Source: Methylobacter tundripaludum
GTDB taxonomy: Bacteria; Pseudomonadota; Gammaproteobacteria; Methylococcales; Methylomonadaceae
DNA length: 64,000 bases
Direction: 5' to 3'
Assembly: GCF_002934365.1 (NCBI RefSeq)
Contig: NZ_PTIY01000006.1
Location: 62,001 to 126,000, forward strand
The notes beneath the pieces were generated by a model. That model was not told the origin of the DNA. It did not search any database and was given only the letters and a program-made list of their open reading frames with translations. The position numbers and the translations under genes were made by a program. Shown here piece by piece: positions 13,794 to 33,704 of this stretch (within the stretch, counting starts at the first letter, position 1; each line of letters opens with the position of its first letter).

Positions 13794-14018
13794 TTATTTT
13801 GAGTCGACCTGCTTGCCGTCTTCGATCATCCGGTTTCCGCGCTCAATTTTGGCTTTGCCTTGCTCAACCATGATTGCGCCTTGTTCCAATTGCGTATTGC
13901 CTTCGCTAACCAGTTTTTTTCCGCGCTCAACCATTTGATCGCCGAGTGTTGGGGCGCTTGAGCATCCCGCCAGTAAGGCGATGGTTGTTGCTGTCAATAT
14001 GATGTTAAATTTTTTCAT
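13794..14018 (-). CDS. Small outer-membrane-type lipoprotein with repeats
   Basis: A 74-residue protein. A signal peptide with lipobox LLAGC predicts lipidation at Cys19. The mature part is built from about 10-residue repeats (MVERGKKLV, QLEQGAIMVEQGKAKIERGNRMIEDGK), which should form a continuous amphipathic helix, as in Lpp-like small lipoproteins. GGAAC precedes the ATG. It is a single gene. Similar short repeat lipoproteins occur in other gammaproteobacteria; the role is not known, perhaps envelope spacing. Confidence 0.8.
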   Translation of the reverse strand: MKKFNIILTATTIALLAGCSSAPTLGDQMVERGKKLVSEGNTQLEQGAIMVEQGKAKIERGNRMIEDGKQVDSK

Positions 14019-18997: not shown

Positions 18998-20398
18998 TTA
19001 CTCAACAACCTTGCCTCCGGTCACTTTTTGCTTGCCCTTAAGACCGATAGCAAACTTGCTCAGATAATCATTGGGCTTGGTGGCGTCGAAACTGATGCCG
19101 TCAATAAAGTCAGCACTGGGCGGTTTGATGCCGGTTTCGTTGTCGGCCGGAAAATCGCCTGCTTTCGCCTTGCCTTCGGCGACCAGCGCCTTGGCCGCAG
19201 CCATGTAAATATCGGGGCGATACACTTTCTTGGCGGTTTCCAAATACCAGTCGTCGGGCTTGTATTCGTTGACTTGCCCCCAGCGGCGCATTTGGCTCAA
19301 ATACCATATTGCATCGCTGTAATACGGATAAGTTGCGTTGTGACGGAAGAACACGTTGAAATCGGGCAGGTCGCGTTTGTCGCCTTTTTCATATTCGAAG
19401 GTGCCGGTCATGCTGTTGGCGAGAACTTCGTAATCCGCACCGACATATTGTTTCTGCGACAGCATTTCCACGGCTTCGGGACGGTTTTTGTTGTTTTCCG
19501 CATCCAACCACATGGCGGCGCGGATCAGTGCTTTGACCACTGCTTTGTGGGTGTTCGGGTTTTTGTCGGCCCATTCTTTACTCACGCCGAAGACTTTCTC
19601 CGGGTTGTTCTTCCAGATTTCATAATCGCTGACCACCGGTACGCCGATGCCTTTGAACACCGCCTGTTGGTTCCACGGCTCGCCGACGCAGTACCCGACA
19701 ATCGTGCCTGAATCCATCGTTGCGGGCATTTGCGGGGGCGGTGTTACCGACAGCAGCGCTTCGGCGTCAATCTGACCCGATGTATCCTGAGGCGGCGCAT
19801 AAAATCCAGGTTTGATGCCGCCGGCCGCCAGCCAGTAACGCAATTCGTAGTTATGGGTGGATACCGGGAACACCATGCCCATATTGAAGGGTTTGCCTTC
19901 GCTTTTAAATTTCTCGACAACCGGTTTTAACGCATCGGCTTTGATCGGATGCACGAGTTTGCCGTCTTTGACCGGAATCTGCGGCTTCATTTGTTTCCAA
20001 ATGTCATTCGATACGGTGATGGCATTGCCGTTTAAATCCATGCTGAATGCTGTAATGATGTCCGCTTTAGTGCCAAAACCGATGGTTGAACCAATGGGTT
20101 GCCCTGCCAGCATGTGCGCGCCGTCCAGTTCGCCGCTGACGACGCGGTCCAGCAAGACCTTCCAGTTGGCTTGCGCTTCCAGTTGCACCGAAAGGCCTTC
20201 ATCCTCGAAATAGCCTTTTTCCAGCGCAACCGCCAACGGCGCCATATCGGTCAGTTTGATAAAGCCGAGTTTTAGGCTGTCTTTTTCCAGCTTTTCAGCA
20301 GCACCGGCACAGTTTGCAAAGGACAAGGTTGATATTGCGGTCACGGCAATGAGCGCCATAACCCGTTTTTTGATAGTAAGTCGTCCGGTTTGTTTCAT
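18998..20398 (-). CDS. nrtA: Nitrate ABC transporter substrate-binding protein
   Basis: A 466-residue periplasmic protein with an N-terminal signal peptide ending near [10 protein letters not shown]. The family core shows as [28 protein letters not shown], then [23 protein letters not shown] and a long C-terminal lobe ([13 protein letters not shown]). These mark the NrtA/CmpA group that binds nitrate, nitrite or bicarbonate; nitrate is favoured by the nirBD neighbourhood and NtrC control. It is the first gene of nrtA-nrtB-nrtCD. GAGG precedes the ATG. Transcription should start near 20546 from a sigma-54 promoter and pass an ANTAR-type leader with a terminator. Confidence 0.93.
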
Positions 20399-20430
20399 AT
20401 TGACCTCAGCAGGTTTGAAAAAATCAGCAA

Positions 20431-20485
20431 AAAAAAGGCGTCACCCGGCTAAATACAGGGTGTATTCATCCGGGTAGACGCCTTT
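20431..20485 (-). terminator. Leader terminator upstream of nrtA
   Basis: Read on the minus strand: AAAGGCGTCTACCCGG pairs with CCGGGTGACGCCTTT, with a further inner stem (AATACA / TGTATT), then a run of eight T. It lies between the two ANTAR-type hairpins and the nrtA start, where an attenuator regulated by antitermination must sit. Confidence 0.93.
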
Positions 20486-20493
20486 GTCTGTTT

Positions 20494-20541
20494 GGGTTCG
20501 CCGTTGAACCCCTCTATTTTTTAGCGCCCCATCGTTGGAGC
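20494..20541 (-). promoter_or_regulatory. ANTAR-type double-hairpin leader RNA of nrtA
   Basis: On the minus strand the first hairpin is GCTCC-AACGAT-GGGGC (one G-U pair) and the second GGGTTC-AACGGC-GAACCC, 14 nt apart. Both loops are six nucleotides with A at position 1 and G at position 4, the known requirement for ANTAR regulators such as NasR. The first hairpin begins about five nucleotides after the predicted sigma-54 start; a terminator follows. A NasT-type ANTAR protein is encoded at 30097-30669. Confidence 0.9.
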
Positions 20542-20555
20542 CTCTGTATTGATTA

Positions 20556-20572
20556 AAGCAATCGTTATGCCA
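20556..20572 (-). promoter_or_regulatory. Sigma-54 promoter of nrtA
   Basis: Minus-strand TGGCATAACGATTGCTT has GG and GC exactly 12 bp apart, as in the consensus TGGCACN5TTGC. The predicted start is near 20546, immediately before the ANTAR hairpins. Confidence 0.88.
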
Positions 20573-20668
20573 AAGTTGTCAAATCGCTATTTCATAGGTT
20601 TAAGCCAGGAATACAGGCGGTCATGGCTGTTATTGGCGTGGCAAGGTGAGGCGGGTTGATGTCGGTAA

Positions 20669-20716
20669 TGCATCAATTCTGTGCATCCGATTGTCTGTTT
20701 GCACCAACGGTGAAAA
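20669..20716 (-). promoter_or_regulatory. Tandem NtrC-type sites upstream of nrtA
   Basis: Minus strand: the distal site ends in GTTGGTGCA (20700-20716), and the proximal site is TGCACAGAATTGATGCA (20669-20685). They resemble the NtrC consensus TGCAC-N7-GTGCA. The gap is 14 nt (31 bp centre to centre, three helical turns), and the sites lie 124-171 bp upstream of the predicted start, typical of NtrC enhancers. Confidence 0.8.
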
Positions 20717-20873
20717 TTTATGGCTAATAAGCTTCCCTCTTCTTCTAACTCCAATAGAACAGGGATAGGTTAGGAACCGATATTACGCACGGGTAGTTTT
20801 TATCCTGTTTGGCGCGCTGCCTGGATGGGGTGCGTAAAATGCATTTAATTCGCGGCGTAGCGCGACACTGCCA

Positions 20874-21022
20874 TTAAGGAACGTGCATGAAATAACTTGA
20901 GCAAGTTTTATTTTTCATTTTTTAACCATGAAGGACATGAAGCGGCATGAAAGGTTTAAGTCTTCATGTCCTTCATGCTCTTCATGGTAATTGCCTAAAT
21001 TAATTTATGCACGATCCTTAGT
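20874..21022. repeat. MITE-like element, copy 1
   Basis: A stretch of about 146 bp bounded by inverted ends (AGGAACGTGCAT... and ...ATGCACGATCCT) with an inner imperfect palindrome ACCATGAAGGACATGAAG / CTTCATGTCCTTCATG. A nearly identical copy lies at 28678-28822 in the same orientation, differing only by single-base gaps. No coding capacity. Both copies sit upstream of an NtrC/sigma-54 promoter. Confidence 0.88.
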
Positions 21023-21351
21023 TAGAAAGGCTGGGACTGCACGGTGCAGGAGGTAGAGCACCAACAGTAGGCGCTTTAGGCGACGCAGGAGCAGTTGCCG
21101 AGAGGGGCGGGGTGAGAAGAATAAAAATAAGGAAAAAAGCCTTATTTGATCCCCTCATCCTAACCTGATCATGCCGGACTATCCTGTCCGGCACCCTGCG
21201 GGCGAGTGCAAATCCGCTCCCGGCGAATTTGTCCCTGAGGGAGAAGGATCTGTCCATCCTTAACTTAATGGCGGTGACGTAGCGCGTGGGAACGAGAAAA
21301 AATGAAGAAAACCGGCCGCTGGCAGGCGGCCCAATCCCGTAGGCAGTTACA
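21023..21351. repeat. Intergenic dispersed-repeat cluster
   Basis: About 330 bp after the chemoreceptor stop. It contains a GCAGGAGGTAGAGCA and GCAGGAGCAGTTGCCGAGAG unit, and a CCCCTCATCCTAACCT...GGGAGAAGG unit interrupted by a GATCATGCCGGAC stretch. Versions recur at 9955-9990, 49340-49380, 54225-54330 and 59050-59120. No gene is seen; an overlapping minus-strand open frame has no support. Confidence 0.6.
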
Positions 21352-23610
21352 TTAAAACGTTTCCCACTCGTCACTATCGGCAAGTTGTAACTGTAATTTT
21401 TGAAGGACAGGCGGATTCTTAACGATACTTGTTCTGGCCGGTGCCGTTTTCTTTGGCGCAGGCGCGGCATGGAAAGAACTGCTGGCATTACGGGAACTGT
21501 CGGCGATTTTAAAACCGCTCACTATGAGCGCCAGGTTTTGCGCCTGTTCTTCCAGCGACTCCGCTGAAGCGGCGGCTTGTTCCACCAGGGCGGCGTTCTG
21601 TTGGGTGACGTCGTCCATTTGAGTAATGGCCTGGTTGACCTGCTTAATGCCGGAACTTTGCTCGGCTGAAGCTGCGGTGATTTCGGCCATCATGACGGTC
21701 ACTTCGCGGATGGAATCGACGATTTCTTCCATGGTGCGGCCGGCTTGAGTGACCAGTTTACTGCCGTCGGCGACTTTATCCACTGAATCGCCAATCAAAC
21801 GTTTTATTTCTCCGGCAGCCGTCGCGGCGCGTTGCGCCAGATTGCGCACCTCCACCGCCACCACTGCAAACCCCCGGCCTTGTTCGCCGGCGCGGGCGGC
21901 CTCTACCGCGGCGTTGAGGGCAAGTATGTTGGTCTGGAAAGCGATGTCGTCGATCACCGAAATAATATCCCCAATTTTACGTGACGATTGGTCGATGCCG
22001 TTCATTGTGGCGACGACTTGCCCGACTACTTCGACGCCTTTGCCCGCAATGCCGGATGCGTCAACGGCAAGCTGGTTGGCATGTTCGGCGTTTGCAGCAT
22101 TATGCTGTACCGCGGAGGTTAGCTGTTCCATACTGGCGGCGGTTTGCTCCAGACTGGCGGCTTGCTCCTCGGTGCGATGGGACAAATCATTGTTACCGGA
22201 GGCTATTTCTTTAGCTGCGGTGTTAATGCTGTCGGTGGAGTCCTGGATATCTCTGACCATGTTTGTGAGGCTTTCTACAAGCGTATTCATACCCGTGATC
22301 GCTTCGCCAAAAGTGCCCGGGTAGTTTTTGTCTATAGTTCGGGTCAAATCGCCTTGAGCCAGTGCGCCGGCGATACGCAATATATCGTTGAAGCCGACAT
22401 CGCAAGTTTCCATCAGGTTATTGAGATTGGTCAAAATCCCTTTGAACATGAACTCAAATTTATCCGCATCGCTACGCTTTGAGAAATCGCCCTTAGCGCC
22501 GGTTTCTGCGAGCATTTTGATTTCGTTGTTAACACCGAGGAAGGTTTTTTTGGCATTGTCCATAATTTCGGTAATGACAATTGTCTCGCCCGGCAAGACA
22601 TCCATATCCATAGAAAAGTCGCCTTTGGCATACTGATTGACAATATTGATCAGTCGTCTGTTTATAGCGATGCGCGATTGAATCAGTTCATTAACTTCAT
22701 GCGCCATCTTGCTATAGGTGCCGGAGAACTTTGAAGCGTCGAGCTGCTCTTTGACCCAGCCTTCCGCATGTTTTTTAGCCATGTTGTCCAGATCGGCAAC
22801 GAAGACGTTAATGGAATCCTGCATGGTTTTCATAGAACGTAACAGCTCCCCGATCTCATCTTTTTGATGAATGTCAATACTGGAGTTCAAGTCACCTTTT
22901 GCGATGGCTCCCGCTACCTGTTGGATCGTTTTGAGCGAGCGTAAAATGCCGCGGCTGGTCAGTACGGTTAATACGACACCCAGCGCGACGCTGATCACGA
23001 AAATGCCGATCAAGACGATCCTGTACCCGGATGTGGTATTCCGGGCCTGCGCCTCGTCTTCTGTGTTGCGCGTTGCTGCAAGTCTTGCCACCTGATCGAT
23101 GACAGTACGGTGTTGTTCATAAGCGCGGCGCATTTTTAGGAGACTGGTCCGTGCGCTGTCGCGGTCGCCCGTCTGGATGCTTGGCAGAAACTGTTGGTCG
23201 GCTTCATTGTAAAAGGCTTGTGCCGGCAGGTAAGCGCGTTCAAGGAAAGGAACCTGTAGTTCCTGTTCCAAAGGCTGGCTTAACCAATAATTGCGACGGG
23301 ATTCGTATTCCGCTTTTAGCGTTTGAAAACGGGTGACTAAAGCGCCGATTTCATCGGGGGTGGAGGCTTGGGTCAGTTGCAGCGCGACCAGATAGGATTC
23401 GATGATGTATTCAGGGGGCGGTGCAATATCGGCAATAATATCTTTACCCTGAACGAGATGTTGATAACTTGGGCTGTCGATATTAACGGTATTCATGGCC
23501 TTGAATGTCGCTAAACCAAACAACGAAAAACCGATGACCAAGGTGCTCAAGATTATCGTAAAACGCATCTTAATAGTTAACTGCCTAGAATTTTTCATCT
23601 TGGTTAGCAT
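21352..23610 (-). CDS. Methyl-accepting chemotaxis protein with periplasmic helical sensor
   Basis: A 752-residue chemoreceptor. TM1 is at about 14-34 and TM2 at about 198-218, enclosing a roughly 160-residue helical periplasmic domain with [15 protein letters not shown], a motif shared with other four-helix-type receptors. HAMP and HAMP-like repeats (about 220-450) lead to a signalling domain with tip [20 protein letters not shown]. The tail is DEWETF, matching the CheR/CheB-docking pentapeptide. GAGAGGAAA precedes the ATG. It is a single gene upstream of an EAL gene on the same strand; ligand unknown. Confidence 0.95.
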
Positions 23611-23741
23611 GATGCAATTTCCTCTCTGTTTGTATGATATGGATTGTTAAAACGCTTCGACCGCCCCCCTGTTTTTCGGCTCATTGTAAATGTTTGGGCG
23701 GATATGTGTTGAATGCCCGAAAGCGACGGCTGTTCAAAGGG

Positions 23742-24917
23742 CTATGCATAGCCTTCGGCAGCAATATCGATTAACAGGATGCGCTCATCGTCCAGTCTGA
23801 GCGTTAAGGTTTGGCAAAGTACATCGGTATTGAAGTCCTTATAGCGTTCGGACGTTATCAGGCGATAGCTGTCTTTTATCGATTCAAGCGCCAGCAATTG
23901 ATAAAAATACGGCCGCCATGCCCAGTTAAAACCGATGCGTGTAGGGTCCTCGAACCATTCGCCATCGGCAAAATTAAAGTTCGCTGAAATTTGTTCGCCG
24001 TCGTTATTGCACAAATAAAGCCGCAACAGGCCTTTTTCTTCAAACGGGTATGCCGAGATCGAGTTGAGATTGAAGCCTGTTTTCAATGCTTTCTTAAGGT
24101 GGTTGCACAAGCTTTTAATTTTGGAGATATATTGTATTTTGTGTTGTTCTTTAGTCAGCGTGTTGTTCAGGAATGATTTTCTTAATGCTTTAATTTGCTT
24201 TTGGTAATGCGTCGGATTTTTGAATTCAGCCTCGGCCGATGAAAACAAAGCCCCCTGCATGTATTGCGCTCCGCAGTTTAAACCGAAAAAGAACTCGTCC
24301 TGGGTTTCGACGCCTACGCAGACGATGCGGCAACCGGTGCGTTTCGCCAAACGGGTTAACAGATGGACTATATCGCTGGCAATGCCGCCTTGAGTCGCCT
24401 GTTTAAATAGCTGTACATCCAATTTGATCAGGTCGGGTTGAGCGGACATCACTTGTTCCAGCTGAGAAAAACCAGCGCCAAAATCATCGATGGCGACTTT
24501 TAACCCCAGTTTTCGATACACACCGATAATTTCAACGAGTCTGTTCAAATCGCCTTTTGCTTCGGTGATTTCGATAATAATGCGGCTTCTGTCTACACCC
24601 AATTCATCGAGCATCAGCAGGGTCGGCAATGAATTAAGGTCTGCGACCTTGCCGATCCAGTCGGCTGAAATATTGATGGTTAAGTAGGCGTTGCAATTTG
24701 ACCGGCTGAATTTTTGCAGCGCTTGACGGCGAACGCAACGGTCCCATGAAATCAGCCGCTCATCGGCCGTATCCGGGCCGGAGAATAACTCGCCTGCGGA
24801 ACTAAGCCGGCCAACGGCGTCCGCTTGCCAAGTCAAAACCTCATAACCGACGATGGCGCCGCTTGCAATACCGACAATAGGCTGAAAATAAGGAAACAGT
24901 CTTTTTTCTTGATTCAT
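23742..24917 (-). CDS. EAL-domain protein with YkuI_C-like tail, probably inactive
   Basis: A 391-residue soluble protein, paralogous along its whole length to the 390-residue protein at 27029-28201. EAL domain (1-240): EVL in place of EAL (tolerated in active RocR), NISADW, IIEITE, IAIDDFGAGFS, IKLD and YMQGALFS. At residue 201 it has VGVE where the paralogue has EGVE; that glutamate is the likely general base, so hydrolysis may be lost. Residues 245-391 resemble the PAS-like EAL-associated domain of YkuI (FADGEWFEDPTRIGFNWAWRPYFYQLL). Its leader has NtrC sites, a sigma-54 promoter, ANTAR hairpins and a terminator. No clear ribosome binding site precedes the ATG. Confidence 0.92.
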   Translation of the reverse strand: MNQEKRLFPYFQPIVGIASGAIVGYEVLTWQADAVGRLSSAGELFSGPDTADERLISWDRCVRRQALQKFSRSNCNAYLTINISADWIGKVADLNSLPTLLMLDELGVDRSRIIIEITEAKGDLNRLVEIIGVYRKLGLKVAIDDFGAGFSQLEQVMSAQPDLIKLDVQLFKQATQGGIASDIVHLLTRLAKRTGCRIVCVGVETQDEFFFGLNCGAQYMQGALFSSAEAEFKNPTHYQKQIKALRKSFLNNTLTKEQHKIQYISKIKSLCNHLKKALKTGFNLNSISAYPFEEKGLLRLYLCNNDGEQISANFNFADGEWFEDPTRIGFNWAWRPYFYQLLALESIKDSYRLITSERYKDFNTDVLCQTLTLRLDDERILLIDIAAEGYA

Positions 24918-25060
24918 ATCGAAAGGATTGATTTAAGGAGTTCGGGCTTAGGAATAACGTTTTTTGCGGCTTTATCGATTGCGCTTTTCCGTTATTCAAG
25001 TTTGGATTAATTTACGCTCAACTTTTGCCGCTCCTTAATAGTGCAAAAAATAGGGCGAAA

Positions 25061-25109
25061 AAAGCGCCTCCAGTTGGAATGCGCGATGCATGCAGTCCGG
25101 TGACGCTTT
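25061..25109 (-). terminator. Leader terminator upstream of first EAL gene
   Basis: Minus strand: AAAGCGTC pairs over eight positions with GGCGCTTT, followed by a T-run, with a loop of about 33 nt that can fold locally. It sits just after the second ANTAR-type hairpin, in the same place as the strong nrtA terminator, but is weaker because the loop is long. Confidence 0.72.
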
Positions 25110-25116
25110 GCCGGTC

Positions 25117-25162
25117 GGGTTCGCCGTTGAATCCCTATTTTTAGTGCTCCGCCGTTGGAGCA
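25117..25162 (-). promoter_or_regulatory. ANTAR-type double-hairpin leader RNA of first EAL gene
   Basis: Minus strand: TGCTCC-AACGGC-GGAGCA (perfect 6-bp stem), then GGGATTC-AACGGC-GAACCC (one bulged A). Both six-base loops have A1 and G4. The element begins about three nucleotides after the predicted transcript start and is followed by a terminator. Confidence 0.9.
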
Positions 25163-25175
25163 TCGGCTTGTTTAA

Positions 25176-25191
25176 CGCAATCGTTGTGCCA
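25176..25191 (-). promoter_or_regulatory. Sigma-54 promoter of first EAL gene
   Basis: Minus-strand TGGCACAACGATTGCG fits the consensus TGGCACN5TTGC exactly, with GG and GC 12 bp apart. The predicted start is near 25165. Confidence 0.92.
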
Positions 25192-25288
25192 AAGTTGCCG
25201 TATCAGTTCTTTGTTGGGCTTGTTTAATAAATACAGCTGCTTATCCGGTGTATTCCGTGAGATCGGAATGGTTTTTTTATGAACCCAA

Positions 25289-25336
25289 TGCCCCGAATAT
25301 GTGCAATTTTTCCATGTGTTGCACCAATTGAATACT
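25289..25336 (-). promoter_or_regulatory. Tandem NtrC-type sites upstream of first EAL gene
   Basis: Minus strand: distal site ending in AATTGGTGCA (25320-25336) and proximal site TGCACATATTCGGGGCA (25289-25305), with a 14-nt gap. The position is 124-171 bp upstream of the predicted start, the same as at nrtA. Confidence 0.8.
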
Positions 25337-25474
25337 CTTGATCTGCGAATGACGGCTTTGGAGCCGCAGCCTAGGTCGGCCAAGCTGTCGGCATAGAACC
25401 TGCTAACGTCAGGGTAGTTATTGTCAATCCGCAGGCATTTTACCGATGCCTAAAACACGCTCTCGCAATGTAAT

Positions 25475-26392
25475 ATGAAAACATTTATTAAGGTGACGGA
25501 GATATGGGTTCCCGCAAAAGACCGCGCCCGGCTGGAATTCAGCGCGGGATTGTACGGCCCCTTGAATGAGTTTCGGGTCGCCAGCGAAAAGGAATCTTTC
25601 GCTTACGACGAGGGTTTGCCCGGCAAGGCGTGGGCCGCTGGCCATCCCGTGGTATTAATGGAGTTCGATCATTCTTATTTCAAGCGGACCACATCGGCTA
25701 AAAAAGCCGGTTTAACCTGCGGTATCGCGATACCCGTGTTTTCAGGCGAATTCATCATGGCCGTGGTGGTTTTTTTATGCGGCGACGATCAACATCATGC
25801 CGGAGCTATCGAAGTCTGGAGTAACGGTTCGGGCGAAAACACGGAGCTGGCCGTGGTCGACGGCTATTACGGTACGCTGGACGATTTTGAGGACATATCC
25901 AGGAAAATGAGCTTCGGCAAGGGCGTCGGTTTGCCTGGGCAGGTATGGGCGGCAGGCATGCCGGTGCTTATAGAAGACCTGGGGCTATCCCCGGCTTTTA
26001 TCAGAAGCGCGGCGGCCGGAAAAGCCGGTATAACGACGGTGCTGGGCATTCCGGTTTCGGTTGTTGGCGATCAGGTTTACATCATGACTTTTCTGTCGGC
26101 TAAGGCTACGCCGATTGCCCAGCGGATCCAGATATGGGCGCCGGACCCATGCGGCCGGCGCTTGGTGTGCCAGTCAGGCTACAGCAAACAAAATGATGAG
26201 CTGGCAGAAATGTTTGAAACCGTCCCGGTCCGTAAAGGCGAAGGCGTATTGGGCAGGGTATGGTTGACCGGCGTGCCGGTTATCAGGAATAACTCGAAAA
26301 TGGCGGTTGCGGAAGGCCGCTTGAATTCGATGCTTGCAATGCCGGTCATCGATGGCGGGCATTTGAAAGCGGTGGTTACGTTTCTGTTTTAA
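25475..26392 (+). CDS. Tandem GAF-like domain protein
   Basis: A 305-residue soluble protein of repeated GAF-like units. Three versions of the same core appear: GLPGKAWAAGHPVVL (about 49-63), GLPGQVWAAGMPVLI (about 150) and GVLGRVWLTGVPVI (about 252), each followed by a GIPV/MPV strand. No output domain (kinase, EAL, GGDEF or HTH) is present. It diverges from the first EAL gene, with that gene's NtrC sites in the shared upstream region. The ligand is unknown; it may act as a stand-alone sensor partner. The ATG is used; no strong ribosome binding site is visible. Confidence 0.85.
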   Translation: MKTFIKVTEIWVPAKDRARLEFSAGLYGPLNEFRVASEKESFAYDEGLPGKAWAAGHPVVLMEFDHSYFKRTTSAKKAGLTCGIAIPVFSGEFIMAVVVFLCGDDQHHAGAIEVWSNGSGENTELAVVDGYYGTLDDFEDISRKMSFGKGVGLPGQVWAAGMPVLIEDLGLSPAFIRSAAAGKAGITTVLGIPVSVVGDQVYIMTFLSAKATPIAQRIQIWAPDPCGRRLVCQSGYSKQNDELAEMFETVPVRKGEGVLGRVWLTGVPVIRNNSKMAVAEGRLNSMLAMPVIDGGHLKAVVTFLF

Positions 26393-26523
26393 CCTGAAAA
26401 TCAGTTGGAACGCGTGAAATCCGTTCGTGCCGAGCCCTTCGGCTACGCCCAGGAGAGCCTTGTGAAGCATCGGCGGATTTCACGCCCCACCCGTTTGCAA
26501 TGCTCAACTGATTTTTCTAGGTT
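26391..26523. repeat. 133-bp palindromic element between convergent genes
   Basis: Ends AACCTGAAAATCAGTTG and CAACTGATTTTTCTAGGTT are inverted; an inner pair GTGAAATCCG / CGGATTTCAC is also inverted. The middle holds a CCGAGCCCTTCGGCTACGCC unit related to the CTGAGCG-CCGAAGGG repeat found in nirD and the nuclease gene. The left end overlaps the GAF gene stop. It probably also terminates both convergent genes. Confidence 0.8.
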
Positions 26524-26533
26524 TAATCGATCA

Positions 26534-26926
26534 TTACATCTCTTCCATGTCTTCCAGTTCGATATTGAGCGCTTTGGTTGAAAGCAGTAACTCGCTGACC
26601 GACGCCAGCAGCGATAAGACGATAAAGGCCATGCTGAATCCGAACGTAATGTTGCCGGAATACTGTAAGCCGTAAAAAATAAGGCCCATGGCGATTATGC
26701 AACAGATAATGCCGATGACTGCGAACAATTGCATAGCCACAATAAAGCGGATGCGCAGCCTCAAGCTGTCAATCTGTTTGACCGCCACCGGGCTTTGGGT
26801 TTTGTTGAACAGGTTATGCTGTTCCCTGATCCGGCTGGCGATCGCCAGAAAACGGTTGGAGTAGGCCAAAAACAAAACCGAAATGGCTGGAAACAGCAGG
26901 GCGGGGGTCGTGATGGTGATGTCCAT
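26534..26926 (-). CDS. DUF2721 family membrane protein
   Basis: A 130-residue protein with three hydrophobic segments (about 5-25, 60-85 and 92-115) and a conserved N-terminal ALLFPAISVLFLAYSNRFL and RIREQ stretch that place it in DUF2721. Family function is unknown. It is convergent to the GAF gene and lies about 100 bp upstream of nothing on its own strand except the second EAL gene start side; it could share regulation with that gene because it is downstream of it only if read-through occurs in the other order, which the positions do not allow. ATG start. Confidence 0.8.
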   Translation of the reverse strand: MDITITTPALLFPAISVLFLAYSNRFLAIASRIREQHNLFNKTQSPVAVKQIDSLRLRIRFIVAMQLFAVIGIICCIIAMGLIFYGLQYSGNITFGFSMAFIVLSLLASVSELLLSTKALNIELEDMEEM

Positions 26927-27028
26927 GGTTTTATCCAGTCAGCTTTAAGTTCTTGCGGTCGCCAGGCTTTTTCAACAGGCGCGGGTGCGCGGAAGCGAAT
27001 ATTACCTTATTTCAGCCGGCAGCTGAAT

Positions 27029-28201
27029 TCATAACCACTCGGCGGCAATATCGATCAATAAAATACGCTCCTCGTCGAGCCTGAGCGACAGGGTTTTGCA
27101 AAGCATGTCGGTATTAAAATCCCGGTAGCGCTCCGAGGTGACAATGCGGTAGCTGTCTTTTGCCGATTCCAGCGCCAGCAATTGGTAAAAGTAAGGCCGC
27201 CAGGCCCAGTTAAAACCCAGCTGCGTGGTGTCCTCAAACCATTTGCCGTCGGCAAAATTAAAGTTGGATGAAATTTGGTCGCCGTCGTTATTGCATAAAT
27301 AAAACCGCAGCACGCCGCTTTGTTCAAACGGATGCGCCGATAATTTATTGAGATTGAAATCGCTTTCGAGGGCTATTTTCAGCAGATCGATCAAGCCCTT
27401 GATGTTGGAGATAAACTGTATTTTGTGTTCTTCTTTGGCTAAGGTTTTTTTCAGGAAAGTCTTTCTCAATGAGCTGATTTGCTGTTGATAATGCTTGGGC
27501 TCTTTAAACTCCGGCATGGCCGGCGAAAACAGATAGCCTTGCATATATTGGGCGCCGCAGCTCAAGCCGAAATGGAAGTCTTCATCGGTTTCAACGCCTT
27601 CGCAAACGATGCGGCAGCCGGTGCGTTTCGCCAGACGGGACAGTAGATGCACGATGTCGCTGGCGATGCCGCCCCGGGTCGCATTCTGGAATAACTGCAT
27701 ATCCAGTTTGATGATGTCGGGTTGTATGGCCATGACTCTTTCCAGCTGGGAAAAGCCCGCACCAAAATCGTCGATGGCTATTTTTAGTCCGTGCCCGCGA
27801 TACACGGCGGCAATTTCAACAAGTTTGTCCAAATCGCCTTTTGATTCGGTTATTTCAATAATGATGCGGCTTCTGTCGATATTAAACTCATTCAGCATCA
27901 TGATGGTGGGTAACGCATTCAGGTCGGAAACCTTGTCGATCCATGCAGCTGAAATATTGATGGTTAAATAACCGTTGTAATTCGATTGACTGAATCGCTC
28001 CAGCGCCTGTCGCCGCACCATGCGATCCCATGCGATCAGTTGATCGGCCGGAATATCCGGCGAAGAGAATAATTCGCCCGCCGAAATAACCCGGCCGGCC
28101 GCATCGTGTTGCCGGGCTAATGCCTCATAGCCGATGATAGTGCCGCTGGCGGCGCCGATAATCGGCTGAAAATAAGGAAAGAGTTTTTTTTCTTGATGCA
28201 T
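27029..28201 (-). CDS. EAL-domain c-di-GMP phosphodiesterase with YkuI_C-like tail
   Basis: A 390-residue soluble protein, full-length paralogue of the protein at 23742-24917. The EAL domain keeps all expected motifs: YEALARQ, NISAAW, IIEITE, IAIDDFGAGFS, IKLD, CEGVE (Glu201) and YMQGYLFS, so it should hydrolyse c-di-GMP. The C-terminal PAS-like domain matches YkuI_C (FADGKWFEDTTQLGFNWAWRPYFYQLL). The promoter has NtrC sites, sigma-54 and ANTAR hairpins, but the leader ends only about 20 nt after the second hairpin, with no terminator. It may read through into the DUF2721 gene about 100 bp downstream on the same strand. No clear ribosome binding site. Confidence 0.93.
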   Translation of the reverse strand: MHQEKKLFPYFQPIIGAASGTIIGYEALARQHDAAGRVISAGELFSSPDIPADQLIAWDRMVRRQALERFSQSNYNGYLTINISAAWIDKVSDLNALPTIMMLNEFNIDRSRIIIEITESKGDLDKLVEIAAVYRGHGLKIAIDDFGAGFSQLERVMAIQPDIIKLDMQLFQNATRGGIASDIVHLLSRLAKRTGCRIVCEGVETDEDFHFGLSCGAQYMQGYLFSPAMPEFKEPKHYQQQISSLRKTFLKKTLAKEEHKIQFISNIKGLIDLLKIALESDFNLNKLSAHPFEQSGVLRFYLCNNDGDQISSNFNFADGKWFEDTTQLGFNWAWRPYFYQLLALESAKDSYRIVTSERYRDFNTDMLCKTLSLRLDEERILLIDIAAEWL

Positions 28202-28221
28202 ATCGAGATGATTGATTTAAG

Positions 28222-28264
28222 GAGTTCGCCGTTGAACCCGTATTTTTGCGCTCCGCCGTTGGAG
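28222..28264 (-). promoter_or_regulatory. ANTAR-type hairpins of second EAL gene, terminator missing
   Basis: Minus strand: CTCC-AACGGC-GGAG (4 bp) then GGGTTC-AACGGC-GAACTC (one G-U pair). Both loops have A1 and G4. The 3' arm merges directly into the sequence GAACTCCTTAAATCAATC that precedes both EAL starts. Compared with the first EAL gene, about 177 bp including the terminator are absent. Confidence 0.85.
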
Positions 28265-28279
28265 TTCTATGTTGTTTTT

Positions 28280-28295
28280 AGCAATCGATATGCCA
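28280..28295 (-). promoter_or_regulatory. Sigma-54 promoter of second EAL gene
   Basis: Minus-strand TGGCATATCGATTGCT has the GG/GC pair at 12-bp spacing. The predicted start is near 28269, just before the hairpins, as in the other two copies. Confidence 0.88.
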
Positions 28296-28392
28296 AAAAC
28301 GGAAGACGGTTGCAGTATCGGTTTTGTTGACCCAGATTAAACGGTTATAGCTGTTCTCCAGGCACGGCTCGGCTTTCGTGGCGGGGGTAAAG

Positions 28393-28440
28393 TGCTCCAA
28401 TTACGTGCAATCTTGCCGAATGCTGCACCAATTTGATCCT
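28393..28440 (-). promoter_or_regulatory. Tandem NtrC-type sites upstream of second EAL gene
   Basis: Minus strand: distal site ending in AAATTGGTGCA (28424-28440), proximal site TGCACGTAATTGGAGCA (28393-28409), gap 14 nt. They lie 124-171 bp upstream of the predicted start, the same geometry as the other two copies. Confidence 0.8.
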
Positions 28441-28677: not shown

Positions 28678-28822
28678 TTTAGGAACGTGCATGAAATAAC
28701 TGAGCAAGTTTTATTTTTCATTTTTAACCATGAAGGACATGAAGCGGCATGAAAGGTTTAAGTCTTCATGTCCTTCATGCTCTTCATGGTAATTGCCTAA
28801 ATTAATTTATGCACGATCCTTA
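28678..28822. repeat. MITE-like element, copy 2
   Basis: Nearly identical to 20874-21022 and in the same orientation: AGGAACGTGCAT at the left, ATGCACGATCCTTA at the right, and an inner ACCATGAAGGACATGAAG palindrome. Together the two copies bracket the chemoreceptor-EAL-GAF-EAL block. Confidence 0.88.
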
Positions 28823-29066: not shown

Positions 29067-29978
29067 ATGACTACAAAATTTACTCCCCTAAAAGACCACG
29101 ATACGCCTATCAAGGTGTTGTTTACCGGTTATTTGTGTACGGTTGGCATAGGTTATCTTTTCGCGTTAATCCAGATATTGTTTACTCACGGCATGGCCGA
29201 CGGCAAGTTCGGCCTCTCTGTCGACGATATTGTTTACAGTTATTACGGTAACCGCTCAGGCACTGTTTTGGAGCAGAAACTGAACGGCTCGATGAAGGAT
29301 AACGCGCCGGAACTGGAGCGTTTTAAGATCATGGAATGGGTTAGGGAAGGCGCCGATAGCGATGATTACAAGTCGGAGGGCATCGATAAAATAATCGAGA
29401 GCCGTTGTGTGATGTGCCATAACAAGGAGGCGTCCGGCATACCGGATTTTACCGAATTTGAGAGCTTAAAAGCCTTAACTACAGAGGATACCGGCGCCAC
29501 ATTCGCGTCATTAACACGGGTTTCGCATGTGCATATGTTCGGTATCAGCTTTATCTTTATGTTCGTCGGGCTTATTTTCAGTTTTGCCGAGACCACCACA
29601 ACGCAATATAAGTGTATTGCGATCGGCATGCCTTATGTGTTTCTTGTCGCCGATATATTGTCATGGTGGCTGACCAAGATTCACCCGATGTTTGCCTGGC
29701 TGGTGATTTTCGCCGGTATGGGCATGGGCGTTTCATTCATATTCATGTGGGTGACCGCTATCCTGGAAATGTGGCTGTTTAAACCGGTGTTTATTAATGG
29801 TTGGGGCTCACGCTATTTAGAGTTGCGCGACAGCACCGACGCGTCGCTTGCGGACAGGCTATGGTCTTACGCCAAGGCGCTTGGCAGGCAGATTAAACCG
29901 GCGGCGGCTTTCGTGGTCGATCTATGGCTGACGCGCGGCTGGCCTGTTGTTAAAGGCTGGTTTAAAAAAATATCATAA
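29067..29978 (+). CDS. Membrane protein with c-type haem motif
   Basis: A 303-residue protein. TM1 is at about 17-40; residues about 45-150 form a periplasmic loop with one CVMCH haem motif (Cys114, Cys117, His118); four more hydrophobic helices follow (about 160-180, 188-205, 210-240), rich in His, Trp and Met (HVHMFG, ILSWWLTKIHPMFAWL). The C-terminus (about 250-303) is cytoplasmic and basic. It looks like a membrane-bound monohaem cytochrome that could pass electrons between quinone and periplasm. I do not recognise the family by name. The gene stands alone, after a MITE-like repeat. Confidence 0.8.
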   Translation: MTTKFTPLKDHDTPIKVLFTGYLCTVGIGYLFALIQILFTHGMADGKFGLSVDDIVYSYYGNRSGTVLEQKLNGSMKDNAPELERFKIMEWVREGADSDDYKSEGIDKIIESRCVMCHNKEASGIPDFTEFESLKALTTEDTGATFASLTRVSHVHMFGISFIFMFVGLIFSFAETTTTQYKCIAIGMPYVFLVADILSWWLTKIHPMFAWLVIFAGMGMGVSFIFMWVTAILEMWLFKPVFINGWGSRYLELRDSTDASLADRLWSYAKALGRQIKPAAAFVVDLWLTRGWPVVKGWFKKIS

Positions 29979-30096: not shown

Positions 30097-30669
30097 TTAT
30101 TTAAGCAGTTCAGCCATGGCGATAACGTTTTTCGCCATTTCCCCAATCGCGATATTGCGGTCCATCGCCAGTTTCCTCAAGGTGTGATAAGCATCGTCTT
30201 CGGTAAATCCACGGGTTTTGATCAAAATGCCTTTGGCCCGATCCACCAGCTTTCTTTCTTCAAGCCTGGATTTTGTTTTTTCAAGTTCATTTTTAAGCCG
30301 TTGTTGCTCATTGAATCTTGCGATGGCGATATTGATAATGCTGTCGATGCGGTTGGGTTCGCCGCTGTTGACCACATAAGCGCTGACACCGGACTTAATA
30401 ATTTGATTGATGGTGTCGGCGGTATCATCAGAAGCAAAAATTATAATCGGAAGCGACTGTTTTTGACTAAGACAATGAATATCCTGGAAATATTTTTTGG
30501 GGCTGTCAATATTGAAAATAACAATGTCGGTGCTGTTCTCCACTAGAGACTGAATGTCTGTTTTAGATGTTGCTGTGTTTGCGACCAAATAGCCCTTGGC
30601 AACCAGTATTTTTTCCAATAACTGATCGGCAGTTTCATCTTCAATAAGTAATACATTCAAAGCGTTCAT
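30097..30669 (-). CDS. nasT: NasT-type ANTAR antitermination regulator
   Basis: About 190 residues from the ATG at 30669; an upstream in-frame ATG at 30705 would add 12 residues, but family members begin at the VLLIEDE strand. Residues 1-120 fold as a receiver with the acidic pair, but Asn53 (FNIDSP) replaces the phospho-accepting Asp, so phosphorylation is unlikely. A coiled coil (about 120-140) leads to an ANTAR domain (LVDRAKGILIKTRGFTEDDAYHTLRKLAMD). ANTAR proteins bind paired hexaloop hairpins in leader RNA and prevent termination. Such leaders precede nrtA and two EAL genes here. In Azotobacter the nitrate sensor NasS controls NasT; no nasS is in the window. It diverges from nirB. Confidence 0.9.
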   Translation of the reverse strand: MNALNVLLIEDETADQLLEKILVAKGYLVANTATSKTDIQSLVENSTDIVIFNIDSPKKYFQDIHCLSQKQSLPIIIFASDDTADTINQIIKSGVSAYVVNSGEPNRIDSIINIAIARFNEQQRLKNELEKTKSRLEERKLVDRAKGILIKTRGFTEDDAYHTLRKLAMDRNIAIGEMAKNVIAMAELLK

Positions 30670-30956
30670 TCTCGAATAATTAGCACAAACCAGGCCATTC
30701 ACCATCGGAACCTGTGGAAACAGTTTGTGCTGGGGTTCGGGGCGAACGGGAGTAATGTGTTCGGCGCTTGCTGGCCGGCGGCGTTCCGAATCGCGTTATC
30801 ACGAGTGTTTGCGAAACGCCGTCATCCCGGCATCAACAGGCCTCGCAGTTGTGGTTTGACGAGCCCCGAGCGTGGCAACGATGAGTTAAGTTATTGCCGA
30901 TCGTATCCTAAGCGGACAGATGAAGTCAGACTGTTTCAACAATGTGCAGGATTATT

Positions 30957-31056
30957 CGGATTGTATTGGTGCAATGCCGAATGAACATTCAGTTGGCGTT
31001 GCACACATAAGGAGCATTATTCATCTATGCGCACCATCTTGGCTCGCACGGGTGCA
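30957..31056 (+). promoter_or_regulatory. Cluster of NtrC-type sites upstream of nirB
   Basis: Sites resembling TGCAC-N7-GTGCA: TATTGGTGCA half-site (ends 30973), TGCACACATAAGGAGCA (31000-31016), CGCACCATCTTGG (31030 onward) and a GGGTGCA half-site (ends 31056). They lie about 80-180 bp upstream of the predicted nirB start. The spacing differs from the three nrtA/EAL cassettes. Confidence 0.72.
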
Positions 31057-31110
31057 TGGTTTTCAGTTTAATGATTGAACAAGCCGTTAAAATCACTGGT
31101 TTGTTAAGGA

Positions 31111-31126
31111 TGGCACAGGCATTGCT
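31111..31126 (+). promoter_or_regulatory. Sigma-54 promoter of nirB
   Basis: TGGCACAGGCATTGCT matches TGGCACN5TTGC exactly, with GG and GC 12 bp apart. The predicted start is near 31137, about 30 nt before the nirB ATG, leaving no room for ANTAR hairpins. Confidence 0.88.
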
Positions 31127-31166
31127 CTACAACCCGAAACAACAAACATCGTTACCGAGGTTGTAT

Positions 31167-33704
31167 ATGAGCGTAAAACAAACACTGGTCGTTATCGGCA
31201 ATGGCATGGTCGGGCAGCATTTTTTAGCCGGCCTGGCCGAAAGCACCATTAAAGAGCAGTATCAAATCATCACTTTTTGCGAGGAACCCAGAGCGGCCTA
31301 TGATCGGGTGCATCTATCTTCATTTTTCACCGGCACAACGGCAGAGGAACTGTCGCTAGTCGAAGACGGCTTTTTCGATCGGCACGGCATTATCCTTCAT
31401 CTGGGCGACAAGGCCGCAAGCATCGACAGGACCGCTAAAACCGTCACCTCGGCAAAAGGCCTGACGATAGCTTACGACAAGCTGGTATTGGCGACAGGCT
31501 CCTACCCGTTCGTACCGCCCGTTCCTGGGCATGACCGCGCGCAATGCCTGGTTTACCGTACCATTGAGGATCTTGAAGCCATTGCCGCCGCAGCCAAAAC
31601 CGGCACGGTCGGCACCGTCGTCGGCGGCGGCTTATTGGGTTTAGAAGCGGCCAAAGCGTTAATGGATTTAGGCCTGGAAACCCATGTGGTCGAATTCGCC
31701 CCGCGCTTGATGGCGGTGCAACTCGATGACGCGGGCGGCGCAATGCTGCGGCGCAAAATCGAGAATCTGGGCGTCATCGTGCATACCGGCAAAAACACCA
31801 GCGTCATTACCGACGGCGAACGGTGCGTCAACAAAATGTGTTTTGCCGACGGCGAAGAGCTGGAAACCGACATCGTGCTGTTTTCGGCGGGTATCCGTCC
31901 GCGTGACGAACTCGCCAGGGCTTCAGGCCTTGAAGTCGGCCAGCGCGGCGGCATCGTGATCGACAACCAATGCCGCACGTCCGATCCCAGCATTTATGCG
32001 ATCGGCGAGTGCGCGTTGTGGAACGGCATGATTTACGGCTTGGTCGCGCCGGGTTATACGATGGCGCGCACCGTAGTGGCCGATTTGGCGGGCGACTCGC
32101 TAAGTTTTACCGGCGCGGACATGAGCACCAAGCTGAAACTGATGGGCGTCGATGTCGCCAGCATCGGCGACGCTCACGCCAAAACCCAGGGCGCGATGGT
32201 TTACACTTACCAAAACGGTGCAAGCGAAGTTTATAAACGCCTGGTGGTCAGCCAGGATAAAAAGCAATTGCTCGGCGCGGTGCTGGTCGGCGATGCGTCG
32301 GGTTACGGCACCTTATTGCAGTATTGCCTGAACGGTATCGAACTGCCGGAGAATCCCGATGCGCTGATATTACCGCACCGCTCCGACGAGTCGGTCGGTT
32401 TGGGCCCGGATGCCCTGCCCGCTTCGGCGCAAATTTGTTCCTGTTACGACGTGACCAAGGGCGCGATTTGCTCGGCGATTGAAGGCGGCTGCATGACGAT
32501 GGGCGCGCTAAAAGCCGAAACCAAAGCCGCGACCGGTTGCGGCGGTTGTTCCGCGTTGCTTAAGTCGGTATTGGATTCGGAACTGTCGAAACAGGGTTTT
32601 GAAGTCAATACCGATATTTGCGAGCATTTCGCCTACACCCGGCAGGATCTACATAACCTGATCCGGGTCGAACAGATCAAAACCTTTGCCGACTTGCTGC
32701 ACAAACACGGCAAAGGCCAAGGCTGCGAAATCTGCAAACCGACCGTCGGCAACATCCTTGCTTCGCAATGGAATGAGCATATCCTGGAAAAGCCGCATCT
32801 GGGACTGCAAGACACCAACGACACCTTTTTAGCCAATATGCAAAAAGACGGCACGTATTCGGTCGTGCCGCGCATCACCGGCGGCGAAATCAGCCCGGAC
32901 ATGCTGATTGCGTTGGGACAGGTCGGCAAAAAATACAAACTCTACACCAAAATCACCGGCGGCCAGCGCGTGGATTTATTCGGCGCTCGGGTCGATCAAT
33001 TGCCGCATATCTGGAAAGAGTTGATAGACGCCGGTTTCGAATCCGGCCACGCTTACGGAAAATCCTTGCGCACCGTTAAATCCTGCGTCGGCAGCACCTG
33101 GTGCCGTTACGGCGTCGATGACAGCGTGGGGCTCGCGATAGAATTGGAAAACCGCTACAAGGGCTTGCGCTCCCCGCATAAGATCAAATTCGCGGTGTCC
33201 GGCTGCACCCGCGAATGCGCCGAGGCGCAGGGCAAGGATGTCGGCGTTATCGCGACCGAAAACGGCTGGAACCTCTACGTCTGCGGCAACGGCGGCATGA
33301 AACCGCGCCACGCGGATTTATTCGCGACCGGCTTGGACAAGCCTACCCTGATCAAATACATCGACCGTTTCTTGAGTTTTTACGTGCGCACCGCCGACCG
33401 TCTGCAACGCACCTCGGTATGGATGGAAAACATGGAAGGCGGGTTGGATTACCTGAAATCGGTAGTGATTGAAGACAAGCTGGGGCTGTGCGATCAGCTG
33501 GAGCAGCAAATGCAGTATGTGATCGATACCTATCAATGCGAATGGAAATCCGCGATTGCTGACGAAGCCAAGCTCAAGCGTTTCCGGCATTTCATCAACA
33601 GCGACCGGCCCGATGACAATGTGGTCTTTGTCGAGGAACGCGGCCAGATTCGTCCCGCCAGCGACAACGAGCGGAAACATTTTAAACTGATGGAGATGGC
33701 GTAA
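31167..33704 (+). CDS. nirB: Nitrite reductase (NADH) large subunit
   Basis: A large subunit of about 845 residues reducing nitrite to ammonium in the cytoplasm. Domain order: FAD/NAD(P)-binding (VVIGNGMVGQHF near the N-terminus, second Rossmann GTVVGGGLLGLEAAKA), BFD-type [2Fe-2S] (CSCYD...GCGGC), then the sulfite/nitrite reductase module with the sirohaem-[4Fe-4S] cysteines CVGSTWC and CTREC. I chose the ATG at 31167: GAGG lies six bases upstream, it starts at the conserved MSVKQTLVVIGNG, and the sigma-54 promoter at 31111-31126 lies just before it; the open frame extends 37 codons further upstream. NtrC control indicates an assimilatory role. The stop overlaps the nirD start by one base. 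Confidence 0.96.
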   Translation: MSVKQTLVVIGNGMVGQHFLAGLAESTIKEQYQIITFCEEPRAAYDRVHLSSFFTGTTAEELSLVEDGFFDRHGIILHLGDKAASIDRTAKTVTSAKGLTIAYDKLVLATGSYPFVPPVPGHDRAQCLVYRTIEDLEAIAAAAKTGTVGTVVGGGLLGLEAAKALMDLGLETHVVEFAPRLMAVQLDDAGGAMLRRKIENLGVIVHTGKNTSVITDGERCVNKMCFADGEELETDIVLFSAGIRPRDELARASGLEVGQRGGIVIDNQCRTSDPSIYAIGECALWNGMIYGLVAPGYTMARTVVADLAGDSLSFTGADMSTKLKLMGVDVASIGDAHAKTQGAMVYTYQNGASEVYKRLVVSQDKKQLLGAVLVGDASGYGTLLQYCLNGIELPENPDALILPHRSDESVGLGPDALPASAQICSCYDVTKGAICSAIEGGCMTMGALKAETKAATGCGGCSALLKSVLDSELSKQGFEVNTDICEHFAYTRQDLHNLIRVEQIKTFADLLHKHGKGQGCEICKPTVGNILASQWNEHILEKPHLGLQDTNDTFLANMQKDGTYSVVPRITGGEISPDMLIALGQVGKKYKLYTKITGGQRVDLFGARVDQLPHIWKELIDAGFESGHAYGKSLRTVKSCVGSTWCRYGVDDSVGLAIELENRYKGLRSPHKIKFAVSGCTRECAEAQGKDVGVIATENGWNLYVCGNGGMKPRHADLFATGLDKPTLIKYIDRFLSFYVRTADRLQRTSVWMENMEGGLDYLKSVVIEDKLGLCDQLEQQMQYVIDTYQCEWKSAIADEAKLKRFRHFINSDRPDDNVVFVEERGQIRPASDNERKHFKLMEMA

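Follow-up and report, generated by a model that had tools for sequence, protein, structure and literature searches.

A NasT-type leader RNA with a sigma-54 promoter on candidate c-di-GMP and chemoreceptor genes next to nitrate assimilation in Methylobacter

In the genome of the methane-consuming gammaproteobacterium Methylobacter tundripaludum (G000 in our set) we studied a stretch of 64,000 nucleotides, positions 62001–126000 of contig C6 (hereafter the window), with a nitrate-assimilation island in which three minus-strand genes are preceded by one shared, homologous cassette, in which paired NtrC-type sites, a putative sigma-54 promoter and then two hairpins with six-nucleotide loops (hexaloops) follow one another at matching distances. 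One of these genes is nrtA (18998–20398), coding for the binding protein of a nitrate ABC transporter (PF13379); the other two, EAL1 (23742–24917) and EAL2 (27029–28201), were recognized by protein-family matches and motif reading as encoding proteins with an EAL and a YkuI_C domain, of the type concerned with cyclic diguanosine monophosphate (c-di-GMP). A gene for a methyl-accepting chemotaxis protein (MCP; 21352–23610, same strand) follows 131 bp downstream of EAL1, with which it is possibly co-transcribed as an operon, and homologues of this MCP elsewhere have leaders of their own. The island also encodes, on the minus strand, a NasT-like receiver–ANTAR protein (30097–30705), the only ANTAR protein in the genome. 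The same gene company, namely EAL, MCP, GAF, DUF2721, NasT, NirBD and NrtABC, recurs in relatives, and EAL and nrtA genes occur together in 9 of the 20 fetched stretches; contig ends truncate several of the remaining ones.

The paired half sites, GGTGCA-N14-TGCAC, which we take to be NtrC-type, were found by pattern search at 20681–20705 (nrtA), 25301–25325 (EAL1) and 28405–28429 (EAL2), all on the minus strand. In the whole window the exact double site is confined to these three cassettes; when up to one mismatch is allowed there are 6 matches against 1.1 expected, the other three being the opposite strand of the same places. Next come the putative sigma-54 promoters, for which we likewise presume the general consensus TGGCA-N6-TTGC: TGGCATAACGATTGC at 20558–20572 for nrtA, TGGCACAACGATTGC at 25177–25191 for EAL1 and TGGCATATCGATTGC at 28281–28295 for EAL2, on the same strand and separated from the enhancers by 108, 109 and 109 bp, respectively. 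This element has 4 matches in the window against 1.3 expected (at least 4 in 6 of 100 shuffles), the fourth lying at nirB (31111–31125). If transcription starts about 12 nt past the GC of the sigma-54 element, as we assume (around 20546 for nrtA), both hexaloop hairpins of each cassette lie roughly 5–50 nt past the expected start. A sigma-54 site followed by two hexaloop hairpins with A at loop position 1 and G at position 4 (A1/G4) occurs three times in the window, as compared to a mean of 0.015 and a maximum of 1 in 200 dinucleotide shuffles, by a criterion that was fixed only after the sites had been seen. All three cassettes have the -24/-12 element and paired upstream sites of a predicted NtrC/sigma-54 promoter, and these pattern searches and shuffles agree with a preliminary description of the window, which had named the three cassettes with the same hairpin coordinates and matching distances.

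The likeness ends at the enhancer. Between nrtA and EAL1, 88 of 125 leader positions are identical (z 11.4), as are 79 of the 126 positions in the enhancer-to-promoter stretch (z 4.8); in the 60 bases that precede the enhancer, agreement is at shuffle level (z 0.4). Over 21 cassette pairs the z for that upstream segment runs from -1.6 to 3.0, the highest value coming from two nrtA orthologues. Across 33 cassettes compared, the sigma-54 element is present in all and the enhancer pattern in 26, with 21 of the latter placing it at -152 to -157.

In the nrtA leader the hairpins occupy 20494–20541 (P1, 20526–20541; P2, 20494–20511; loops AACGAT/AACGGC) and are followed at about 20428–20485 by an intrinsic terminator, AAAGGCGUC...GACGCCUUUUUUUU, recovered by RNAalifold and folding. 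The EAL1 leader has its hairpins at 25117–25162 (P1, 25145–25162; P2, 25117–25134), both with the six-nucleotide A1/G4 loop AACGGC and the P2 stem with one A–C mismatch, and past P2 an intrinsic terminator at about 25058–25109 with an 8-bp basal stem and a run of six U. The presence of a terminator on these two genes bears out the preliminary description; a simple promoter and terminator scan, limited to terminator loops of at most 8 nt, reported neither terminator and is uninformative. The hairpins of the EAL2 leader (28222–28264; P1, 28251–28264; P2, 28222–28239; both loops AACGGC), which like all the foregoing are on the minus strand, have no terminator after them. RNAalifold on 25 leaders returned P1, P2 and a two-part terminator with 27 pairs, for 6 of which at least one leader has both partners changed. 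In the 11 EAL and MCP leaders 94.9% of the helix cells pair, against 44–52% when the partner is slid, and the paired cells, the double-change cells (6) and the covariation score all beat every one of 500 shuffles. Relative to shuffles, the fold energies give z values of -6.6 for nrtA, -2.7 for EAL1, -3.1 and -4.0 for the EAL and MCP leaders of M. tundripaludum SV96, and -3.6 for a further leader on contig C5 described below; the EAL2 leader (z -0.72) folds no better than its shuffles.

The preliminary description had proposed checking the three leaders against a covariance model. As no Rfam family reaches its gathering score, we built our own models from leader sequences, and one of these does match all three. 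This model, R2, was trained on 16 nrtA leaders of other Methylobacter loci, with no window, EAL or MCP sequence among them, and was searched over the whole window with filters off and over 48 fetched loci. In the window it picks out the leaders of nrtA (128.3 bits), EAL1 (71.8 bits, E 1.6e-18) and EAL2 (36.3 bits, E 2.6e-8), the E-values of R1 and R2 alike being rough; the next-best matches are the reverse complement of the nrtA leader (30.1 bits) and then one match of 18.1 bits. Recognized by a model free of window sequence, the EAL1 leader is a true homologue of the nrtA leader. Chance resemblance was ruled out by the double-site counts, the R2 scores and the hexaloop shuffles, and by sequence comparison the cassettes of nrtA, EAL1 and EAL2 are homologous.

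The second model, R1, built from 25 leaders, was searched over the 4.18 Mb of the own genome and over 23 Methylobacter genomes. In the own genome it finds four leaders, those of nrtA, EAL1 and EAL2 and a fourth on another contig (C5:282452–282580), which scores 101.7 bits despite being in no training set; nothing further appears at E 0.1 except the nrtA reverse complement, 150 out of 1114 first-look candidates having been scored. The double enhancer accompanies each of the four leaders; the genome search for it gave 13 rows at 10 distinct places. The C5 cassette, which like the chemoreceptor leaders of relatives goes beyond the preliminary description, stands before a remnant of an EAL/YkuI_C gene, recognized by eye, and then a gene for a 1204-residue protein with the architecture NIT-HAMP-PAS-GGDEF-EAL (L126:6162–9776). 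The latter protein has a nitrate/nitrite-sensing-type domain fused to c-di-GMP domains. A leader of the nrtA type was also considered for the own nirB and rejected: the sigma-54 element is there, yet R1 gives no leader. The longest open reading frame (ORF) of nirB starts at 31056, upstream of this element (which lies within 31056–31180), and translation probably begins instead at the ATG of MSVKQTLVVIGNG, a short way past the promoter.

Within the genus, 18 of the 23 Methylobacter genomes have an orthologue of the EAL gene (20 genes). R2 leaders of at least 70 bits precede EAL genes in five of the 23 genomes (G000, G022, which is M. tundripaludum SV96, G010, G014 and G005) and MCP genes likewise in five (G022, G010, G014, G004 and G008, the MCP of the last being taken from an ORF). 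R1 over the 23 whole genomes returns the same full-leader genomes, and weaker R2 leaders are seen on the EAL gene of G019 (40.3 bits) and the MCP gene of G001 (40.4 bits). The full unit is found before the YkuI-type EAL gene; the MCP gene can have the sigma-54 promoter together with the leader and the terminator, joined in some instances by the paired sites. For a single origin of the EAL and MCP cassettes, as one clade, the approximately unbiased (AU) test gives p 0.25 on a tree that does not settle the matter. In a sister lineage (L036, L037 and L038) the region upstream of the EAL gene shows a sigma-54-like element and a strong terminator-like hairpin with no hexaloop pair discernible by eye, and a different attenuator may be in use there. 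In five loci of relatives (L023, L024, L027, L032 and L035) the EAL ORF is extended in frame by a second, partial EAL N-terminus, likely the trace of an old tandem duplication.

Across the family, 101 of 201 genomes have the leader at E 1e-6. The 99 leaders outside the genus, from 85 genomes, stand before nrtA (80), nirB (14) and an EAL gene (1, in G152), with 4 having no match to a window protein downstream: one of these precedes an alginate-export porin, two a membrane protein that by eye is nitrate-transporter-like, and one a contig end. The sigma-54 element accompanies 78 of the 80 nrtA leaders as against 1 of the 14 nirB leaders. An order-wide search found the leader in 89 of 301 genomes at E 1e-8, those listed all belonging to the same family. 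As the genes downstream outside the genus are mostly nrtA or nirB (94 of 99), the element is best understood as the ordinary nitrate-assimilation leader of the family, and EAL and MCP genes preceded by it are, in this sample, nearly limited to Methylobacter. The one candidate EAL leader outside the genus (G152, L220) was set aside: it has the sigma-54 element, one clear hexaloop hairpin and a terminator, with no canonical second hairpin by eye. The leader before the porin, which is of the alginate-export outer-membrane type and belongs to another genus (L143; G163:C89), is of the NasT type and scores 112.5 bits.

Some further features of the island and genome may be recorded here. A 303-residue gene at 29067–29978 with a CxxCH haem-type motif is present in many of the fetched stretches and matches nothing in Pfam or NCBIfam at E 0.001. 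A long, imperfect, CATGAAG-rich inverted repeat occurs in two copies, one beside nrtA (20918–20993) and one beyond EAL2 (28727–28790); they have the look of a dispersed palindromic element and surfaced as chance Rfam matches. Genome-wide there are four matches to flagellin and 42 to GGDEF, which we count in favour of the proposal that follows.

Taken together, we propose, with a probability of about 70%, that an nrtA-type NasT antitermination leader has been recruited to a c-di-GMP and chemotaxis module inside the nitrate-assimilation island. Comparison establishes, at the level of sequence, the homology of the cassettes, their recurrence in relatives and the single ANTAR protein that such a leader calls for, which is encoded in the window itself; it strongly suggests NasT antitermination at EAL1 and at the EAL and MCP genes of relatives. 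Under the proposed mechanism, nitrogen limitation would activate NtrC and the sigma-54 promoter would fire; the transcript would end at the leader terminator unless NasT, active when nitrate or a nitrate-derived signal is present, bound both hairpins, so that nitrate uptake, c-di-GMP breakdown and chemoreception would be switched on jointly. Here the binding of NtrC and of NasT, nitrate as the signal and as the NasT input, and the effect on c-di-GMP are what we infer. In the window the complete form would operate on nrtA and EAL1, possibly as an EAL1–MCP operon, and EAL2, with its enhancer, promoter and hairpins, would respond either to NtrC alone or to NasT at the level of translation or RNA stability. 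The preliminary description had claimed that nitrate and nitrogen status directly control c-di-GMP turnover by antitermination. The homology of the EAL1 leader, the sole ANTAR protein and the recurrence on EAL genes of relatives, including SV96, speak for that claim; it does not extend to EAL2, which has no terminator, it is weakened at EAL1, whose product is probably not an active phosphodiesterase, and its nitrate input stays presumptive.

Several observations weigh against this proposal. One concerns the EAL1 protein, which alone, as compared to EAL2 and 25 relatives, has Arg replaced by Trp in the ExLxR motif and Glu by Val in EGVET (EVLTW and CVGVET) and has the longest end branch in the EAL tree (0.27). 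The substituted residues bind substrate and act in catalysis, and with this Arg and Glu lost, the EAL protein behind the complete leader of the window is probably inactive as a phosphodiesterase. EAL2 has the intact catalytic signature of a predicted active phosphodiesterase, with ExLxR, N, E, DD, K, EGVET and Q all present, as they are in the 25 relatives (one with EGVES); a re-reading of the motifs covered 20 EAL loci, L003 and L014 being left out, and found them intact in the full-leader EAL proteins of SV96, G010, G014 and G005. Other adverse points concern the leader: on EAL genes the full leader is found in only 5 of the 18 orthologue-bearing genomes, several of which retain the sigma-54 element alone; A1 and G4 are present in both loops in 15 of 17 nrtA leaders, 4 of 6 EAL leaders and 2 of 5 MCP leaders, so that some of the EAL and MCP leaders are either decaying or recognized in another way; of the 6 MCP cassettes, 3 show no enhancer pattern and a fourth has it far off, at -197; the double-changed pairs of the EAL and MCP leaders (2) were matched by 231 of 500 shuffles and the further pair types by 439 of 500, neither being above chance; P2 is missing from the minimum-energy fold of EAL1, as are both small hairpins, P1 and P2, from that of the SV96 EAL leader; and no Rfam family attains its gathering score either in window positions 14000–36000 or in three leader loci of relatives, an E-value search likewise giving none at that score. 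Finally, on the side of the protein, the ANTAR part of NasT is almost invariant among 8 sequences; in all 8 the receiver has Asn where the usual phospho-Asp aligns, going by the position that we take to be the phospho-site. No NasS was found genome-wide by PF13379, the one family tried, at E 0.001, NrtA being its sole match.

EAL2 calls for separate treatment. Between its P2 and the ATG at 28201 there are 20 nt, and the R2 alignment covers both hairpins and skips the terminator. As the stretch that follows P2 (GAACTCCTTAAATC) recurs shortly before the EAL1 start codon, a deletion likely brought P2 up against the usual end of the untranslated region. The leaders of L022, L030 and L079 share this terminator-less form, and the cassette tree places them in one group with EAL2 (99/99). 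The absence of a terminator excludes antitermination at EAL2, which, judged from its elements, should be governed by NtrC/sigma-54, with any effect of NasT exerted on translation or RNA stability. That the hairpins do act in this manner, with the ANTAR protein binding beside the start codon, is conceivable: they adjoin the ATG, all 8 loops of the four leaders have A1 and G4 intact by eye, notwithstanding an extra base in P2 of L079, and Ramesh et al. 2012 (PMC3369931) propose that an ANTAR RNA located at the start of an MCP gene works in this way. However, there is no Shine-Dalgarno sequence near the EAL2 ATG by eye, the fold energy is ordinary and the terminator-less sequences are but four and related; we hold this version to be doubtful.

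A more deflationary account would see the EAL and MCP cassettes as relics spread by duplication, in which the leader is decaying, NasT control has been lost and only the NtrC/sigma-54 promoter matters. It would accommodate the missing terminator of EAL2, the degenerate EAL1 with its longest end branch, the C5 cassette before a gene remnant, the altered loops of L022, L030 and L079 with the extra base in the last, the loss of the loop signature in 2 of 6 EAL leaders and the genomes left with a sigma-54 element alone. It is harder to square with strong leaders persisting on EAL genes and on MCP genes in five genomes each, with the near-complete pairing of the helices in the 11 leaders and with the conserved catalytic motifs of the leader-bearing EAL proteins of G022, G010, G014 and G005, and on balance we think it unlikely. 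We give still less credence to the leader being a self-standing or processed nitrogen-stress small RNA that acts in trans, like Rfam P11 of Pseudomonas. The nrtA leader does resemble P11 (29.9 bits, E 0.0041), which is typed as a gene and described as a small RNA, but the match falls far short of the P11 gathering score of 70 bits; the nrtA leader of SV96 matches narK, a cis-regulatory family (25.4 of the required 43.2 bits for the window nrtA leader), better than it matches P11, and the preponderance of nrtA or nirB immediately after the leader in the family does not suit a trans-acting RNA.

If the recruitment of the nrtA-type leader holds, it would amount to a direct wiring of the nitrogen source to the swim-or-settle decision in methane-consuming bacteria. 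The copies in different states, i.e., full, terminator lost and gene lost, also illustrate how a unit of RNA control comes to be taken up by new genes and later given up. What appears to be new here is that c-di-GMP-type and chemoreceptor genes of methane oxidizers, M. tundripaludum SV96 among them, stand behind an ANTAR leader with a sigma-54 promoter.

ANTAR leaders have so far been tied to nitrogen metabolism genes. Among the papers listed in searches of the open-licence full-text literature on ANTAR or NasT together with c-di-GMP, none has a title or abstract describing an EAL gene under such a leader; the main text of PMC3369931 uses neither of the terms EAL and GGDEF, and that of PMC6759348, on the NasT regulon of Bradyrhizobium, uses none of EAL, GGDEF and chemotaxis. 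The closest parallels are the NasT/NasR antitermination leaders of Klebsiella nasF and of Pseudomonas nirBD (NalA), which have two A1/G4 hairpins (PMC3369931), a terminator and an ANTAR protein as here, with a sigma-54 promoter reported for Pseudomonas nalA in a passage of PMC12830290; in contrast to those, the targets here include EAL and chemoreceptor genes and no NasS is found by PF13379. With the nitrate-related library matches narK RNA (RF03032) and P11 (RF00625) the nrtA leaders share the CAACGRYG loop and the GACAAAGRCGUC block, whereas all scores lie below gathering and the MCP, EAL and C5 leaders searched (L115, L118 and L126) have no match at E 0.5. The survey of Ramesh et al. 2012 (PMC3369931), in the portions bearing on this, records ANTAR RNAs mostly on nitrogen genes, with several per genome under one theme, as here, and one at an MCP start; unlike the latter, the MCP leaders described by us are terminator-type and lie behind a sigma-54 promoter. 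Nitrogen signals acting on the expression of phosphodiesterase-type genes also have precedents: passages of PMC5524735 report on a Burkholderia in which nitrate brings c-di-GMP down and the transcript of a phosphodiesterase up, and a passage of PMC5491218 lists an EAL gene and nasT among the genes lower in an ntrC mutant, in both cases with no leader RNA or ANTAR protein mentioned there.

The most suggestive comparison is with Pseudomonas putida, in which, according to a passage of PMC12830290 that cites Nie et al. 2024, NasT grips the nirBD leader less firmly once c-di-GMP is bound to it. In that species c-di-GMP acts on NasT, whereas in Methylobacter a c-di-GMP gene is the predicted target of NasT. 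Because c-di-GMP is reported to inhibit NasT in P. putida, falling c-di-GMP would make NasT more active, and because no NasS was found, c-di-GMP could even be the main NasT input in Methylobacter. By this analogy a double-negative feedback loop through c-di-GMP is possible, and it is tempting, if speculative, to picture a self-reinforcing switch in which NasT induces the phosphodiesterase and the lowered c-di-GMP frees NasT, locking in nitrate uptake, low c-di-GMP and the chemoreceptors. If both hold, the direction of control reported in P. putida and the one predicted here would together close a loop.

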